Assembly: GCA_027314645.1 (NCBI GenBank)
Contig: DAHVAL010000018.1
Coordinates: 1 to 38,097 of the forward strand
Source of the DNA: Nitrospirota bacterium
GTDB taxonomy: Bacteria; Nitrospirota; Leptospirillia; Leptospirillales; Leptospirillaceae
Length of the DNA stretch: 38,097 nt
Direction of reading: 5' to 3'
The translations under genes were made by a program, and so were the position numbers. The notes under the pieces are model-generated. The model made no database searches. It saw only the letters and a list, made by a program, of their open reading frames with translations, and was not told where the DNA came from. The stretch's first letter is position 1. Every line of letters starts with the position of its first letter. Below are positions 7,924 to 30,193 of this stretch, piece after piece.

Positions 7924-8679
7924 TCATTCCGAAGGCTTTTTCTGGAAATTTCTGATCCAGTCGAGCGGAAACGGGAAGACGATGGTGGAGGTCCTGTCTC
8001 CGGCAATCTGGCTTAAGGTCTGGAGATACCGCAATTGCATCGCCTCCGGGGTCGAGGAAAGCACCTGGGCGGCTTCCAGAAATTTCCCCGCCGCCTGAAG
8101 CTCTCCGTCTGCATAAATGACCTTGGCTCTCCGCTCCCGCTCCGCCTCCGCCTGCCGGGCGATGGCCCGGATCATGCTCTCGTCGAGGTCCACCCTTTTG
8201 ATCTCGACATTGCTCACCTTGATGCCCCACGCATCGGTATGTTCGTCTAAGATGGACTGGATGTCGGTATTGAGTTGGGTTCTCGCCGAGAGCATTTCAT
8301 CAAGGTCGTGCTGTCCAAGGACGGAACGGAGGGTGGTCTGGGAAATCTGGTTGACGGCCTGCAGGAAGTCTTCGACCGCGATGATCGCAAGCTTCGGGTC
8401 GATCACCCGGAAATAAACGACCGCACTGACCCTCACCGAGACATTGTCCTTTGAAATGACATCCTGGCTGGGAACATCCATCACGACGGTGCGAAGCCCC
8501 ACTTTGACCATTTGTTGGACCATGGGAACCAACAGGACCAGCCCGGGTCCCTTGACCTTCCAGAAACGGCCGAGAACGAACACGACCCCGCGATCGTATT
8601 CTCGAAGGATTCTGACGGACCGGGCAAGAATGATGACCCCCACGGCGATGATGAACACAGTCGGAAGCAGCTCGATCAT
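7924..8679 (-). CDS. slipin / stomatin-like SPFH-domain membrane protein
   Basis: A 251-residue prokaryotic stomatin homologue. An N-terminal membrane hairpin (about residues 3-20) is followed by the SPFH (band 7) domain beginning with the hallmark [13 protein letters not shown]. It continues through [12 protein letters not shown], the VSAVVYFRV strand and the [14 protein letters not shown] coiled coil typical of slipins. The family forms oligomers at the membrane and is commonly paired with NfeD proteases. Here the start ATG overlaps the NfeD stop (ATGA at 8676-8679), so the two are translationally coupled. The same frame stays open far upstream through the NfeD gene, but that part is an out-of-frame shadow. 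Confidence 0.95.
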
Positions 8680-10058
8680 GACTCCTCCTCTGAAACCGGC
8701 CTCACCTTGAGGGTGAGTCCCGAGATTCCATAAACGACGACGCGTTCGCCTTCCTTGACGGGAACGGGAGACGAGGCCCACCATATTTCGCTGTGCAGTT
8801 TGACCCGGCCTATTTTTCCGAAGCTTTCGAGCGCGGTGCCCGTTTCTCCTCCCATGGCGGGCGCGCCGGTGATGACGGGCCTGAGCCGGGCCCTGAGCGC
8901 CATCCCGAGAATCCCGAGGAAGAACATTGAGAAAAGAACGGTGAAGAGGAGGATCACTCCTATGGGAGTGTGGAAAGGAGGGGCGCCTTCTCCCGGAGGA
9001 GCCTGGAAAAAAAGGAGGGAGCCAAGGAAAAAGGAAAGGATGCCCGCAACCGCCAGCCCCCCGAAGGCCCCGATCAGAACCTCCGCGATCATCAGGCTCA
9101 CCCCCAAAAGGAGAAGGAGAAGCCCGGTCATGTTGACGGGGAGGATGGTGAACGCATAGAGGGCGAGAATGAAGGAGAGGGCTCCCGCAACTCCCGGGAC
9201 GACGAACCCCGGGTGGGAGAATTCGAAGGCGATCCCGGCCACTCCAAGAAGAAAAAGGAGATAGGCCAGTTCGGGTTGTGCGAGAACTTCCAGAAGGCGG
9301 TCTTTCCAGGTCTGATGGAAGACGCGAAGCGTGGCCGGCTCGAGATGGAGCGTGATCGTGCGGCCCTTTACCCTGACGGAGCGCCCGTCGAGCACGTGCA
9401 AAAGAGTGTGCATGTCGGGGGCGAGAAAATCGACGACATGCATTTTGAGGGCCGTCTGAGCGGAAAGATTGTCGGCGGACACGACCGCACGGATCGCCCA
9501 CGATTGGTTTCGCCCGTTCATTTCCGCCAGGCTTCGGATGAAGGCCACGGCATCGTTGAGAATCTTTCGTTCCTCCGCATCGGGGGGAGGAGGGGAGGGG
9601 GTCCCCTTTTTCCGGGCCGGGCCGGGGAAAAACGGCACGCCCCCCCCGATCTGGACCGGAGTGGCCGATCCGACGTTCGTCCCTTCGGCCATGGCGGCGA
9701 GAGGGCAGGCATAAAGAATATACGTTCCTGCGCTGGCGGCCCTGGCGCCGCTTGGGGCCACATAGCCGATCACCGGCACGGAAGAGGCGAGAATATCCTT
9801 GATAATGGCCCTCATGGAACTCGACAGCCCCCCGGGTGTGTCGATTTTCAGGATGATCAAGGAGGGCGTCTTTTTTTCCGCAAGGGCGAACCACCGATGG
9901 AGGGCGGAGGAGAGAGGGGGGGTGACGTCGCCGGTCAGGGGGAACACCCATACCCGATTGGGGGCATTCGGAGGATCGGGCGAGCCGATTCCGGGATCGG
10001 GGTGGAGGAAGCCCAGAAACAAGAGGCAATAGAGCGTGAAGGAAAGACATCGGCCCAT
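8676..10058 (-). CDS. NfeD family membrane-bound serine protease (long form)
   Basis: A 460-residue full-length NfeD protein. A signal/anchor segment (1-25) precedes a ClpP-class serine protease domain with [11 protein letters not shown] and the nucleophile motif [10 protein letters not shown] (Ser109). Archaeal homologues use a Ser-Lys dyad and cut the C-terminus of their partner stomatin. About five transmembrane helices follow (near 245-380), then the C-terminal OB-fold NfeD domain ([29 protein letters not shown]). An unusual Pro/Lys-rich insertion lies after [12 protein letters not shown] (about 140-165). It forms a two-gene operon with the slipin. Protease and stomatin partner are expected to act together in membrane quality control. 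Confidence 0.95.
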
Positions 10059-24800: not shown

Positions 24801-25103
24801 GGGGGGGGCGGGAATCATCCCTCCTTCTCGGGCGAGGGAAAGATAATGCCAGACCCGAAAGAGCGGGATCGGCTCCCCCGACCGGAGCGTCAGGGGACGG
24901 GAATAGACGGGAATGGCCCGGGCTCCCCGGATCTCCTCCACGCGGGTTCGAATCTTTTTGTCGATCCAGGCGACGGACCCAATCAAGGTGATGAAAACGA
25001 TGAAGAGGCTCACCACGATGAGCCACAAAAGCCGCATTCCGGGCCTGCGCTTGGGGCGGTTTTTTGAAGGCCGAGGAGAAGGAGCAGGATTATTTTGGTT
25101 CAT
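24801..25103 (-). pseudogene. N-terminal part of the split PBP1b-like gene (frameshifted)
   Basis: About 100 residues: a basic, Pro-rich cytoplasmic tail (KNRPKRRPGMR), one membrane helix (about 24-45, LLWLIVVSLFIVFITLIGS), and the start of a PBP1b-type ectodomain (RVEEIRGARAIPVYSRPLTL). The frame then passes a run of eight C on this strand (G at 24801-24808) and continues as Arg/Pro/His-rich nonsense to 24306. Removing one C joins it to the main frame through a Pro/Lys linker. This could be a true mutation, a phase-variable tract or a sequencing error. The ATG at 25103 has only a weak upstream AGGA, far away. Confidence 0.75.
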
Positions 25104-25153
25104 ATCTTTTTGAAATTGATCCTTTGTTATCCCCTGAGGGGAAAGGGAGGCCC

Positions 25154-25507
25154 ATGAAGACGCTTCGAATCCATCCAGGAAAAGTTGCGGGAGTGACCCT
25201 TTTGTGGATCGCCCTTGTCCTCTCCGTGTCAGCCTGTTCCCGTCATGAGGGACGTCCCATCCCCCAGTTCGACGTCAAGACGTTCACGGAAGGAAAAACC
25301 ACGGAACGCGATGTTCTCCAAAAACTTGGACCTCCTGAAAAAAAGGAGAAATTGCTGGGGGAAGAGGTCTGGATCTACCGCCATATCGTCCACACCGGTT
25401 TCGGCAAAAGGACCACGCAGATACGTGTCGTGAAGCTCAGGTTTGACGATAAGGGAGTTTTGCAGCATATCGAGGAAACAAATCGAAAATATGAGTCCCT
25501 CTTCTAG
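25154..25507 (+). CDS. BamE/SmpA-OmlA-like outer membrane lipoprotein
   Basis: A 117-residue lipoprotein. ATG at 25154 follows GGGAGG. Lipobox VSAC (Cys28) leads into a SmpA/OmlA-type domain: FTEGKTTERDVLQKLGPPEKK, then EEVWIYR, then VVKLRFDDKGVLQHIE, the alternating pattern of the family. BamE homologues assist outer-membrane protein insertion, but small paralogues with other roles are common, so the exact function is open. Divergent from the PBP1b-like gene with a 50-bp gap. Its stop overlaps the stop of the convergent exported-protein gene by three bases (CTAG at 25504-25507). Confidence 0.85.
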   Translation: MKTLRIHPGKVAGVTLLWIALVLSVSACSRHEGRPIPQFDVKTFTEGKTTERDVLQKLGPPEKKEKLLGEEVWIYRHIVHTGFGKRTTQIRVVKLRFDDKGVLQHIEETNRKYESLF

Positions 25508-26076
25508 CGGGTGCCGCCTCCATTTTTTGAAAGGTCTGAGATGAAGGGATGCGAATGGGGGATCGGCCCTTGCCATTCGACCCGGACATGGGCTCCGGTC
25601 CCGCAAAGCACCACGGGGTATTTTCGGACCGGCGGCCCGTATCCGTTCAGATGAACCCGGACAAACTCCCCTTGCGGGGTTCCCCGGGCGCGCAGAGTGA
25701 AGCACCCTGTACTGGTCTGGAAAGAAAATCCGGCCGTATGATGCGTCCCCGACGGGGCAATCAGAAACCGGATCGTATCCTTGGTCAGCTGCTCCAGAAC
25801 CATCTCGCGGTCCGGATCATGGTGCCGGGTGATGTGGACCCATCCACCCGGGTCCCGGACCGTTCCCGAGTAGGCGATCCCCGGTCGGACACGGACGGCG
25901 TGAATGGAAAAGATTCCAGGAATATGGGTCAAGTAGAGCCCTTCCTCGTCCTCCTGCAATATTTTCCAAAGGGAGGAGTCGCTCCCATGGGCGCAAAGGG
26001 GCGCGACCCCCATGAGAAGGGCCAGAGAAATCGTAAGGATCAGGGATCTGACCTTGAAATCAACGAACGACGGCAT
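25504..26076 (-). CDS. exported protein of unknown function, last gene of the PspA operon
   Basis: A 190-residue protein with an N-terminal signal sequence (RSLILTISLALLMGVAPLCAHG, cleavage near 31) and a mature beta-rich domain of about 160 residues with two Cys (TSTGCFTL and VVLCGTGAH) that could form a disulphide. The ATG at 26076 follows AGAGGCGGG and overlaps the end of the glycosyltransferase gene by 17 bases, so it is part of the same operon. The frame is open from 26169, but that extension lies wholly within the glycosyltransferase gene. No family recognised; the periplasmic location fits an envelope role. Confidence 0.75.
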   Translation of the reverse strand: MPSFVDFKVRSLILTISLALLMGVAPLCAHGSDSSLWKILQEDEEGLYLTHIPGIFSIHAVRVRPGIAYSGTVRDPGGWVHITRHHDPDREMVLEQLTKDTIRFLIAPSGTHHTAGFSFQTSTGCFTLRARGTPQGEFVRVHLNGYGPPVRKYPVVLCGTGAHVRVEWQGPIPHSHPFISDLSKNGGGTR

Positions 26077-27193
26077 GGCCCGCCTCTTTGGAAGGGAAAC
26101 TTTCGGGGTTTTCCTGGGAACGGCTCCCTCCGAGCATCGAGAGAAGTAGATTCGCCGCCACCCGGGCACCGGAGTGCCCGGTGGCGCCTTTGGCCCGTTT
26201 CATCTTTGGCTGGGGCGGGGATTCCAGCAAACGGTCGATCCCGTTTTCGAGCGATGCCCGTTCCCGATTTTTGGCATCCACCGCCCATCCGGCTTTTTCC
26301 GCGTCCCGGGTCCGCTTTGCCTGGTCGTCGAGATCCCGATCGAAGGGAATCAAAAGCGCCGGGATGCCCGAACGCTCCAATTCATTGACGGTATTGTATC
26401 CTCCGCTCCCGACCGCAAGGTCGAATGCCCCGAGCCATGGGGCCACGGGCCATGCGGGAAACCACTCCCTGGCGGTGATGCCGTCCGGAAGACCGGGGGA
26501 GAGGGGACCCGTGGCCACATAGACCTCGATTCCCCGTTCCCTCAACCGTCGGACAATGACGGGAAGGACGGTCCGGATTTCCGGATCTCCCCCACCGCCC
26601 AAGGTGACGAGAGCGGTTCGCGTGTCGGAAAACCCCAGCCGTCTTCTCAACTCTTCCCGCGATTGGGACCCCGATTCATCGATGATGGGACCGGTAAAGT
26701 GGACCCGGGGATCCCGTTTCAGGTACTCCGGAAGGGGGACCGCTCCTTGTTCATGGGCGATCAGGATCATCTGGTAGGGGGAGAGTTTTCGCCGCGTGTC
26801 CTCCCCGTCGAACCCGCCCGTTTTGGACTCCCGGTAGACAAAGGCCTTTCGGATCGGCCATCGCATGACCGGAGCCAGCTCTCCCTCCGGCCCTTCGGGA
26901 AAGGTATCGGCCACGAGGAGGTGGGGATCGAAAGAGGAGACGGTTTGCCAAAGAAGCGGATGGGTCACCTGGTAGTAGGACTTGGGGGAAAGGCCTGAGG
27001 ATTTGGCCCTTGATGTCGTGGGAATCCGCAGGGTGAAGGGGGCTTCCAAATCCGGAAAGGGACCCGCCTCGCATCGGCTAAGAAAGAGCCGTTCATGGGA
27101 CGGATCCAGGGCACGAACAGCGCAGCTGATCGAAAGAAGCCGCGTGACATGCCCAAGTCCCAGGCCGTTGGTGGCGTAAAAAAGAATCCGCAT
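26060..27193 (-). CDS. MurG-like GT-B glycosyltransferase
   Basis: A 377-residue cytoplasmic glycosyltransferase. The N-terminal motif MRILFYATNGLGLGHVTRLL is the nucleotide-sugar/acceptor Gly loop of the MurG/GT28-like group. The C-terminal donor-binding half has LVTLGGGGDPEI, then LAVGSGGYNTVNELERSGIPALLIPF, the signature ending in a conserved Asn-Glu pair, then DLDDQAKRTRDAEKAGWAV. Acceptor and sugar are unknown. It is too diverged to call MurG itself. The ATG shares one base with the TGA of the preceding TPR gene (TGATG), so the two are coupled. Fourth gene of the DUF4912-PspA operon. Confidence 0.88.
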   Translation of the reverse strand: MRILFYATNGLGLGHVTRLLSISCAVRALDPSHERLFLSRCEAGPFPDLEAPFTLRIPTTSRAKSSGLSPKSYYQVTHPLLWQTVSSFDPHLLVADTFPEGPEGELAPVMRWPIRKAFVYRESKTGGFDGEDTRRKLSPYQMILIAHEQGAVPLPEYLKRDPRVHFTGPIIDESGSQSREELRRRLGFSDTRTALVTLGGGGDPEIRTVLPVIVRRLRERGIEVYVATGPLSPGLPDGITAREWFPAWPVAPWLGAFDLAVGSGGYNTVNELERSGIPALLIPFDRDLDDQAKRTRDAEKAGWAVDAKNRERASLENGIDRLLESPPQPKMKRAKGATGHSGARVAANLLLSMLGGSRSQENPESFPSKEAGHAVVR

Positions 27194-28434
27194 CAGGATC
27201 GGTCTCCTTGACCATAGGCTCCGGATTCCCGGTCTTCCCTGTCCGCCATCCCTCCTCCGCCCCAGTCTCCCTGCGGGTGAGCATCGGGCATCTGGACCGG
27301 GGGCGCGTCGTGCCCCCCCTCGTGGGACATCCAGTCGAGCAGCATGAGATCTCCAAAGGAAAGGCCTCCCCCCATATAGGGGAGCCCTCCCGTATAGAAG
27401 GCCGAAGGGGGCTGGTAGGTTCCGGTCCTCTGGTAATTCTGCTCCATTTCGGCAAGACAGGTCGGACAAGCCCGCGCATAGGCGACTTTTCCATGGCGTT
27501 CGAGGGGGACCGTCCGGCCGTCCTTAGCATCCCTGCCGCAAAAGACGCAACGGTCCCCCCCAATGGGAGGGGAGGAGGTTCCGGGGGGGGGCATCTCTTC
27601 TGAGGAAGGCCCCTGTCCGGGCAAAGGAGGATTGTTCGTGACTCCGGGGGCTTCTCCCATGATTCCCCGGATATTGAGGATGGCGGAATCGATGGGAGCG
27701 AGGGCCGCTTCAAAGCGGGTGCGGCGCTCGCTCCAGTCGGTCTGCGGGGTTTCAGGCTCACGAAGGATGTTCAGGACGTTCCGGTAGGCGGGATCCAAGG
27801 CCCGAAATGCGGCTTCCAAAGCCTCTTTTTTGTCGGGGTGGTCAAGGAGATAGTAGTTCTTGTCATCGGAGACCTTGTCAACCGCTTTCATGAGACGTGC
27901 GGCCGTTCCTTCCAGCTCCTCCTTGTCATTGATTCCCGATTGAATCCGGGACTGGGTCCTCTTTCGGAGCGCGAGAAAGATCAGGAACGCTCCGACTCCC
28001 AAAAAGGCTAGAAACCATCCGGTGTGGGAAGGGGCTTTTTCGGGGTTTCCGGAAAAGGTGACCTGATGGGGTGGGGGGAGGGGGCTTTGGCCTTCGATGA
28101 CCTGATGCATGAGGCGCTTGTGCATGGACCGCACATGGCCCGGATTATTCGTGAAGGTGAGAGACGGGTTCGTATGGATCGCTCCTTCGAGATCCATGAA
28201 GGCCTGATGCTCCAACCCCAGGCGATCCTCGGAAAGGGCCATGAAGTATTGAAATTTCCCTGTTCCTGAGGGTTGGTGCTCATGGAGGGACTTGAATTCC
28301 TTGAGCGCATCTCCATATCGTCCGGTGTGATAAAGATGCAGTCCTTCCTTGAAGGAGGTTCCCGGCTCACCGAAGGTCGGGAAGGGACACGCAAGAAGGG
28401 AGAGGAAAAAAACGAACAGGAAAAATCGTCGCAT
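27193..28434 (-). CDS. TPR / zinc-ribbon membrane protein of unknown function
   Basis: A 413-residue protein. The N-terminus is a signal or lipoprotein signal (LLAC at 13-16 fits a lipobox). Residues 25-95 form one or two TPR-like helical hairpins (EGLHLYHTGRYGDALKEF). A membrane helix spans about 139-156 (WFLAFLGVGAFLIFLAL), a helical region runs to about 260, and a four-Cys zinc ribbon is Cys296/Cys299 and Cys323/Cys326 (CVFCGRD ... CPTCLAE). The tail is Gly/Asp/Met-rich and disordered. The likely topology is periplasmic TPR, cytoplasmic helices and zinc ribbon. ATG at 28434 follows AAGGGG, ten bases after the PspA stop. The architecture is not one I can name. Confidence 0.85.
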   Translation of the reverse strand: MRRFFLFVFFLSLLACPFPTFGEPGTSFKEGLHLYHTGRYGDALKEFKSLHEHQPSGTGKFQYFMALSEDRLGLEHQAFMDLEGAIHTNPSLTFTNNPGHVRSMHKRLMHQVIEGQSPLPPPHQVTFSGNPEKAPSHTGWFLAFLGVGAFLIFLALRKRTQSRIQSGINDKEELEGTAARLMKAVDKVSDDKNYYLLDHPDKKEALEAAFRALDPAYRNVLNILREPETPQTDWSERRTRFEAALAPIDSAILNIRGIMGEAPGVTNNPPLPGQGPSSEEMPPPGTSSPPIGGDRCVFCGRDAKDGRTVPLERHGKVAYARACPTCLAEMEQNYQRTGTYQPPSAFYTGGLPYMGGGLSFGDLMLLDWMSHEGGHDAPPVQMPDAHPQGDWGGGGMADREDRESGAYGQGDRS

Positions 28435-28444
28435 AAATCCCCTT

Positions 28445-29116
28445 TCAGGATTTTTTCTGTTTCAAGGCGGCAAGCTCCGCCTCGATATCGGGCTTCTTGC
28501 GGTCGAGGTCGGCAAAGGCGGTGTCGAGATTCGCCCCCGTTCTTTTGTCCGCATACTCCTTGGAAGCATCGGCCTGGGCTTCCATTCTGGAGATCTTTTC
28601 GGCCATTCTCCCCATTTCCTGGCCGATATGCTGGGGGTCGATTTCCGCCCGGACGGCATTGATCTCTTCCTTTGCCTTGGCCCGCTCTTCTCTTAAAGAG
28701 AGTGTGTTCTGCTGGCGGGCGAAGTCGTCGCGCATGGCCCCGAGCTTGTCGAGATCCGCCGACAATTCGTCCACGACGGTTTTCTGGTCGTCGCGCTGTT
28801 TCGTGAGGTCGCCGAGCTCCGACGAAAGGCGGCTTTTCTCGAGAAGGGCCTTTCGGGCCAAATCGTCATTGCCCGCCGTCACGGCTTTTTCTGCGCGCTC
28901 TGCATAAAGATCGATCTGGTTCTGGGTCTCCTGAACCTTTTGGTCGATCAGTTTGACCTCCGCCATCGCCTTCACCAGCTCCCCTCTCGCCTTTTGAAGT
29001 TTGTCGTCCAGATTCCTGAGCTGCTGGGCGATCATGACTTTGGGGTCTTCCATTGAGTCGAGGGCGCTATTGGCATTGGCCTGAAAAATTGTTTTCATTC
29101 GATCGAGCAATCCCAT
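28445..29116 (-). CDS. pspA: PspA/IM30 family phage-shock protein
   Basis: A 223-residue, almost entirely alpha-helical coiled-coil protein of the PspA/Vipp1 (ESCRT-III-like) family, which oligomerises on stressed membranes. The N-terminal amphipathic helix MGLLDRMKTIFQANANSALD and the following EDPKVMIAQQLRNLDDKL are diagnostic. A long charged coiled coil extends to about 160, and the C-terminus is short with no Vipp1 extension. ATG at 29116 after AAGGAG. It is the second gene of a five-gene operon. No pspF, pspB or pspC is present here, so regulation probably differs from the E. coli phage-shock system. Confidence 0.95.
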   Translation of the reverse strand: MGLLDRMKTIFQANANSALDSMEDPKVMIAQQLRNLDDKLQKARGELVKAMAEVKLIDQKVQETQNQIDLYAERAEKAVTAGNDDLARKALLEKSRLSSELGDLTKQRDDQKTVVDELSADLDKLGAMRDDFARQQNTLSLREERAKAKEEINAVRAEIDPQHIGQEMGRMAEKISRMEAQADASKEYADKRTGANLDTAFADLDRKKPDIEAELAALKQKKS

Positions 29117-29163
29117 GGGTTCTCCTTGATATCGGCGAAGCGGGCAACAGGCCCGGCCGCCTT

Positions 29164-30102
29164 TTATGGTTTGTAATGGCTGGAAGGGATCTCGTGCGAG
29201 GTTGGAAGTTTAATGCGCGAACGAGACAGCATATTTCTCCAGTGCTCTTCCATCGGGAAGTAGCCGGGAAGGAGAGATTCCTTGAGATGAAACAGCGATC
29301 CTGTGCGGGGGGACGGTCCTCCCAGGGGGGTCCTGATCCGTTTTGAGCGCGCCAGAACATTGAACGTGCCGTTGTCGTAATAGCCGAGCCAGGCCTCGAT
29401 CCACCGGTTCGAGGACCAGAGGGGGATGTACCAGCGCTCGGCCATTCCCGTCATGATGTCAAACACATGGTCCGTTTCAACCGTACCCCGGGTATCCCCT
29501 CGGAAAACGGCGCCGGTGATGTCCCGGATTTTCAGAACGAGACCTGAAGTATCGATCCGATGGGTCAAGGCGCGGTCAAGATTCCGGTCCACAGCGAAAA
29601 AGGCGATGATCCGGGTGGGTGCGATCGAGAGGATTGTCACGTGATGGCCTTTTTCCCGGTGGACAGGTTCGTAGGGAATATCCAGAAAGTCCTTCCACCC
29701 TGCAGCGGTGCGTGCTTGAGAGGCCGGCAGGGGGGGAGGGGGGGAGGGAAGGATCTCCGGGCGGGGCACGGGGTGAGAGACGGCTTCGGCGAGCGGAGGG
29801 GAGGGGGCAATGGGAGATTGCGTGTCACGCTTTCCGGGGATCGCGGTGCCCGAGGCGGACCGGATTTTTTCGATCAGATCGATGCGTCGGTCCTTGGGGC
29901 CGACCGGAAGCCGCATCGATTCGGCGAGGGCGATCAGTTCCGGACGGGTCTTTCTCGTGAGACCGGGAATGGATGAAGCGGGTTGGGCGGCGGAGGTCCT
30001 GACCCTTGCCTGCCTTTCACGCGGTGGACTGCTGGAGGCGTTCTTTTTTTTGGGAGTGGGGGCGCTGGTCTTTCCGGGCTTTTCTGTGGATTTCTTTTTC
30101 AA
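29164..30102 (-). CDS. DUF4912-domain protein with Rho_N/SAP-like helix
   Basis: A 312-residue protein with a TTG start preceded by GGGAGGG. A Lys/Ser/Pro-rich disordered N-terminus (1-45) is followed by a small SAP/Rho_N-like helical motif (about 48-82, LTRKTRPELIALAESMRLP). A Pro-rich linker leads to a C-terminal DUF4912 domain (about 137-265) with IPYEPVHREKGHHVTILSIAP, LVLKIRDITG and SSNRWIEAWLGYYDNGTFNVLARS. DUF4912 is uncharacterised. The Rho_N-like motif suggests nucleic-acid contact, but the basic tail may simply be disordered. First gene of the operon with pspA, 47 bases upstream of it and divergent from lipA. Confidence 0.85.
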   Translation of the reverse strand: MKKKSTEKPGKTSAPTPKKKNASSSPPRERQARVRTSAAQPASSIPGLTRKTRPELIALAESMRLPVGPKDRRIDLIEKIRSASGTAIPGKRDTQSPIAPSPPLAEAVSHPVPRPEILPSPPPPLPASQARTAAGWKDFLDIPYEPVHREKGHHVTILSIAPTRIIAFFAVDRNLDRALTHRIDTSGLVLKIRDITGAVFRGDTRGTVETDHVFDIMTGMAERWYIPLWSSNRWIEAWLGYYDNGTFNVLARSKRIRTPLGGPSPRTGSLFHLKESLLPGYFPMEEHWRNMLSRSRIKLPTSHEIPSSHYKP

Positions 30103-30193
30103 GGGACCCTCCCGATGCGATCGTCCTACCTTCGTCCAGTCCTATGGTATCATGGTCGAACAACCGGATTAATCTTGAGTCTAGGATAGCATA

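Follow-up and report, generated by a model that had tools for sequence, protein, structure and literature searches.

A conserved five-gene block containing PspA and a candidate membrane receptor in one family of Nitrospirota

Layout and products of the gene block

The window analyzed here, a 38,097-nucleotide stretch from a Nitrospirota bacterium of the Leptospirillaceae (assembly GCA_027314645.1, contig DAHVAL010000018.1), carries five adjacent leftward genes, with that for a PspA/IM30 family protein in second place (Table 1). The open reading frames, positions, and spacing given for them in an earlier note on this DNA, with 47 and 10 bases between the first three genes and overlaps of 1 base and then 17 bases between the last three, were all exact, and its domain assignments held, as PF04012, PF16258, and PF04101 all scored above cut-off. 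Sequences resembling ribosome-binding sites were present upstream of starts in the block, and the TTG start of the DUF4912 gene aligned with TTG, GTG, or ATG starts of its orthologs from the same genus. No terminator-like site was found on the coding strand in the gaps between the five genes. Across the window, the only RNA elements were tRNAs, and searches for anti-phage defense families returned only coiled-coil noise.

Table 1. Genes of the block and its upstream region, in window coordinates
Feature	Position	Strand	Properties
DUF4912 protein gene	29164..30102	(-)	312 aa, TTG start; PF16258 match
PspA/IM30 family gene	28445..29116	(-)	223 aa, ESCRT-III-like; PF04012 match
TPR/TM/zinc-ribbon membrane protein gene	27193..28434	(-)	413 aa; single-pass
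GT28-like (MurG/YjiC-like) glycosyltransferase gene	26060..27193	(-)	377 aa, soluble; PF04101 match
Exported protein gene	25504..26076	(-)	190 aa; signal sequence
Operon upstream region	30103..30193	(-)	divergent from lipA

PspA matched PF04012 over its full length (residues 2-222; 145.2 bits against a cut-off of 33.9) and was the only match to that family in the 2.04 Mb genome. It also matched solved Vipp1 and PspA structures over its full length, and on these full-length matches we place it in the PspA/IM30 (ESCRT-III-like) family. Its N-terminal helix, a candidate for the amphipathic alpha0, aligned with known members and had a hydrophobic moment of only 0.31.

The product of the third gene is the only one in the block with a transmembrane (TM) segment besides a signal sequence. 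Specifically, it comprises a signal sequence (residues 4-22), TPR-like helices (28-113), the TM segment (138-156), a helical bundle (about 160-259), a zinc-ribbon-like CxxC/CxxC region (296-326), and a conserved Gly-rich tail. The TPR match was weak in the window protein and was detected in 10 of 12 orthologs. Since the TM segment is followed by RKR, the positive-inside rule predicts that the zinc ribbon and C-terminus lie inside and the TPR part outside. All four cysteines of the zinc motif (C296, C299, C323, and C326) are present, and three of these positions are invariant, with C299 replaced by Asp in one genus. A hairpin (307-322) and a helix (324-337) were modeled at the motif, for which all family matches were below threshold. 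The TPR, the zinc ribbon, and the Gly-rich tail, with PYMGGGLSFGDLMLLDW, were strongly conserved. Confidence in the model of the whole protein was low (pLDDT 58), with the helical bundle reaching about 85, and a fold search returned no significant match.

The GT28-like enzyme matched PF04101 over residues 254-335 (33.6 bits against a cut-off of 22) and scored 28.8 bits against the MurG equivalog TIGR01133, far below the cut-off of 250.25; its closest solved structures were MurG and YjiC rather than any glycolipid synthase. By these scores it is a GT28 superfamily C-terminal domain protein and not a MurG equivalog. The exported protein is a predicted beta-sandwich with two invariant cysteines, 125 and 158, that could form a disulfide. 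It matched no database family, and fold matches to the beta-sandwiches of cohesin, YcnI, and DsbD-alpha were rejected (all E >0.001, TM about 0.3).

Among 396 Nitrospirota genomes, profile searches found no full-length relative of either the TPR/zinc-ribbon or the exported protein outside the family that carries the block. Candidate relatives of the former were rejected because the matches covered only its TPR-like N-terminal part, and the one weak match to the latter (E 1.6e-4) spanned only 37 residues. These profile searches covered Nitrospirota only, and a scan of 84,980 species used close-relative patterns only.

Conservation of the block across the order

The order DUF4912, PspA, TPR/TM/zinc ribbon, GT28-like enzyme, exported protein was present in 16 of the 21 genomes of the order, representing five genera. 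In 13 of the 16 carriers, including the genome of the window, the block was complete on one contig and in the same order; in the other three the contig ends inside it. None of the five non-carriers, all incomplete bins, has an intact region without the block, its place being missing or cut, and operon loss is thus unsupported: in two of them (G010, G015) the contig starts 144 and 346 bases, respectively, before the flanking penicillin-binding protein gene, in two others (G011, G018) both flanks are missing as well, and the last (G002) is 64% complete. Within this one bacterial family, every locus with an assembled region holds the five genes together.

In the genus of the window, the block is flanked by lipA, ArsR, OYE, and MFS genes on one side and by a BamE-like gene and a penicillin-binding protein gene on the other, and none of these genes was near the block in the other four genera. 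In most of these four, a divergent gene for an Slp-family outer-membrane lipoprotein lies just upstream of the operon (L029, L031-L034, L140), with an HAD phosphatase beyond it in several. Because the flanks differ fully between the genus of the window and the other four while the block is intact, selection holds the five genes together, and the edges of the block are sharp at exactly these five. Protein identity outside the genus was 28-51% for four of the five proteins. The one-base TGATG overlap that joins the TPR/zinc-ribbon and glycosyltransferase genes was identical in all 15 loci checked (the window and 14 others). Within the genus, mean pN/pS was lowest for PspA (0.13), followed by the TPR/zinc-ribbon protein (0.29), the exported protein (0.38), the glycosyltransferase (0.40), and DUF4912 (0.44), synonymous sites being near saturation in this comparison; all values are below 1, and purifying selection acts on all five genes. 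The five genes are a genuine conserved unit. The earlier note had considered a single operon likely and had proposed comparing gene order in related genomes; that order is kept, as one unit in five genera with non-conserved flanks.

Several loci showed local peculiarities. In one genome of the same genus, the glycosyltransferase and exported-protein genes are separated by a HEARO RNA (RF02033) and, after it, an IscB-like RRXRR/HNH protein (L028, 10875-12541). In one bin (G005) the block occurs twice (L032, L140; contigs C104, C37); we rejected duplication, as both copies have the same flanks, which makes a mixed-strain bin likelier. One pspA copy contains an in-frame TAA near a contig edge (L038, 1-615), by assembly error or decay, and the lipA matches beside the operon run through one TGA codon in G016 and two in G014 (L126, L127). 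In the window, the BamE-like gene (25064-25507, (+)) is small and lipoprotein-like, and its BamE match is below threshold. It stands tail to tail with the operon, overlaps it by 4 bases (25504-25507), and adjoins the block in this genus only.

DUF4912 and PspA in other settings

The DUF4912 protein matched PF16258 at 44.6 bits against a cut-off of 29.4, as did 13 of 13 orthologs above that cut-off, and has no cysteine, no TM segment, and a lysine/proline-rich N-terminus. The Rho_N-like motif reported in the earlier note gave only weak matches, in 2 of 13 members (best E 0.047), and lies outside the conserved part. The long N-terminal part that contains this stretch is confined to the genus of the window; in the other genera the DUF4912 proteins are shorter and lack it.

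DUF4912 was found in 148 of the 396 Nitrospirota genomes and was almost absent from the literature searched. Outside the carrier family, a GH57 glucan branching enzyme adjoins it in 27 of the 30 best-scoring loci (L066-L095, L150-L161), a sample biased to strong DUF4912 matches, and this proximity ties DUF4912 to sugar polymers. In a single case (L157), an apparent glycogen synthase lies further on from the pair. The pair shares with the present block a DUF4912 protein with a long charged N-terminus, but in the block DUF4912 adjoins PspA, and in 8 of 9 genomes the carrier family has its GH57 enzyme at another site. DUF4912 thereby gains two contexts: in many Nitrospirota a glucan branching enzyme, and in the block described here PspA.

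Proteins of the PspA/Vipp1/ESCRT-III group have been studied in few model systems, and the receptors that recruit them to membranes differ between lineages. Like proteobacterial pspFABC, the block includes a PF04012 family member; unlike it, the present system has no PspC, no PspF equivalog, no PspA at the level of the proteobacterial equivalog TIGR02977 (101.8 against 242.95 bits), and no sigma-54 site above chance, the pattern being at or below chance in the region upstream of the operon. The absence of pspF, pspB, and pspC stated in the earlier note holds to differing extents. None of the 21 genomes in the order matched PspC (PF04024), against 7 of 14 control genomes, and the genome of the window has nine sigma-54-activator matches, none above the cut-off of the PspF equivalog TIGR02974; for PspB, the absence applies to the five genes of the block. 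The note had also called the system distinct from the classical phage-shock response, and its partner set indeed differs from pspFABC. That claim is weaker than it sounds because earlier work has already described PspA operons outside the classical type that include membrane anchors and zinc ribbons (PMC11237479, PMC8581546).

Other PspA genes in Nitrospirota, of which few were found with the present profile (25-39 bits against about 400), adjoin CesT/Tir and DUF4178 proteins, as confirmed with Pfam in examples; potassium-channel-like, DUF350-like, and spermidine-synthase-like neighbors were recognized by a look at the sequence only. These loci, in other families of the phylum, look like the described CesT/Tir-PspA operons with DUF4178, DUF350, a K+ channel, and spermidine synthase (PMC11237479), which also combine PspA with unusual partners, but none of those partners occurs in the present block. 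PspA operons with lineage-specific partners are a known kind (PMC11237479, PMC9239133), and the partners found here are not described for other PspA systems. The main texts of those two studies mention no DUF4912 or glycosyltransferase with PspA, and their only TPR passage concerns other proteins; earlier work on PspA in Leptospirillum was not found in the literature searched.

The closest parallel is pspA-ydjGHI of Bacillus subtilis, where the formation of PspA foci depends on YdjG and on YdjH, the latter of which interacts with PspA (PMC8581546). As in the present block, in which the anchor is a candidate, that operon joins PspA to membrane proteins that anchor it, has zinc ribbon(s) and a TM segment, and includes no PspF, PspB, or PspC (PMC8581546, PMC11237479). 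In contrast, its band-7 protein YdjI and TPM-domain protein YdjH are absent from the five proteins of the block, which has the TPR-TM-zinc ribbon protein, the GT28-like enzyme, DUF4912, and the exported beta-sandwich instead. The candidate anchor is likened to YdjG and YdjH by proposed role and layout, not by sequence homology.

A possible role in envelope maintenance

The reading that we favor, to which we give about an even chance, is a clade-specific PspA operon for envelope maintenance, a counterpart of pspA-ydjGHI in which the TPR/zinc-ribbon protein would serve as receptor and the glycosyltransferase would modify a membrane-linked substrate. Beyond the conserved unit itself its steps are ones we infer, with the membrane function of PspA taken from relatives. 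Where the inner membrane is damaged or under stress, PspA would oligomerize on the membrane's inner face. PspA systems depend on a partner in the membrane, and the lack of PspC throughout the order leaves room for another receptor, for which the TPR/zinc-ribbon protein, as the sole TM protein of the block, is the obvious candidate. Its outside TPR part may sense the periplasmic side, perhaps via the exported beta-sandwich protein, and on the inside its helical bundle, its zinc ribbon, and its Gly-rich tail may recruit or nucleate PspA. GT28 enzymes (MurG, plant MGDG synthase, UgtP) use UDP-sugars on membrane lipids or lipid-linked precursors, which fits an enzyme working at the site of PspA; the cytoplasmic GT28-like enzyme, encoded by the gene that overlaps that of the candidate receptor, would add a sugar to such a lipid or precursor in the same place, with DUF4912 as a putative cytoplasmic accessory protein for the sugar side. 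The whole would work like pspA-ydjGHI with other anchor proteins. In the TPR-TM-zinc ribbon protein the block offers a candidate family of receptors; of this family, and of the enzyme and exported protein that accompany it, we found no description.

The GT28-like enzyme, the exported protein, and the usual place of DUF4912 in the phylum, next to a GH57 glucan enzyme, would also suit an operon for envelope polysaccharide or lipid-glycan synthesis, in which these three proteins would make or handle a glycan of the cell surface, with the TPR protein as an assembly factor and PspA only shielding the membrane from the load. This is possible, if unlikely, given that the block lacks a flippase, polymerase, exporter, or second glycosyltransferase in every genus and that PspA is its most conserved member, as suits a central component better than a helper.

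Unrelated functions are often joined in operons, and up-regulation of PspA at low pH is reported for A. caldus, likewise an acidophile (PMC8425152), so the transcript might instead combine two functions, a PspA and TPR/zinc-ribbon pair and an unrelated glycosyltransferase and exported-protein pair, co-regulated for instance under acid or metal stress. We regard this as unlikely, because order and gene content are constant in five genera despite changed flanks and because the invariant overlap sits exactly between the two supposed halves. That the five are chance neighbors inherited together without a functional link is very improbable: the known carriers all fall within one family, which means that shared ancestry adds to the synteny, but the block persists, tightly spaced, where four of its proteins have diverged widely and the flanks of the window have been fully replaced.

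A bolder form of the envelope-maintenance reading, which we consider improbable, would couple membrane repair on the spot to membrane glycolipid synthesis, with the receptor recruiting both PspA and the glycosyltransferase, DUF4912, borrowed from the glucan-branching module, reporting sugar supply, and the whole being an adaptation of acidophilic iron-oxidizers to extreme proton leak.

NfeD and band-7 genes go with PspA in other bacteria. In the window, a slipin (Band_7) gene immediately follows an NfeD gene at 7924-10058 (-), about 15 kb from the operon.
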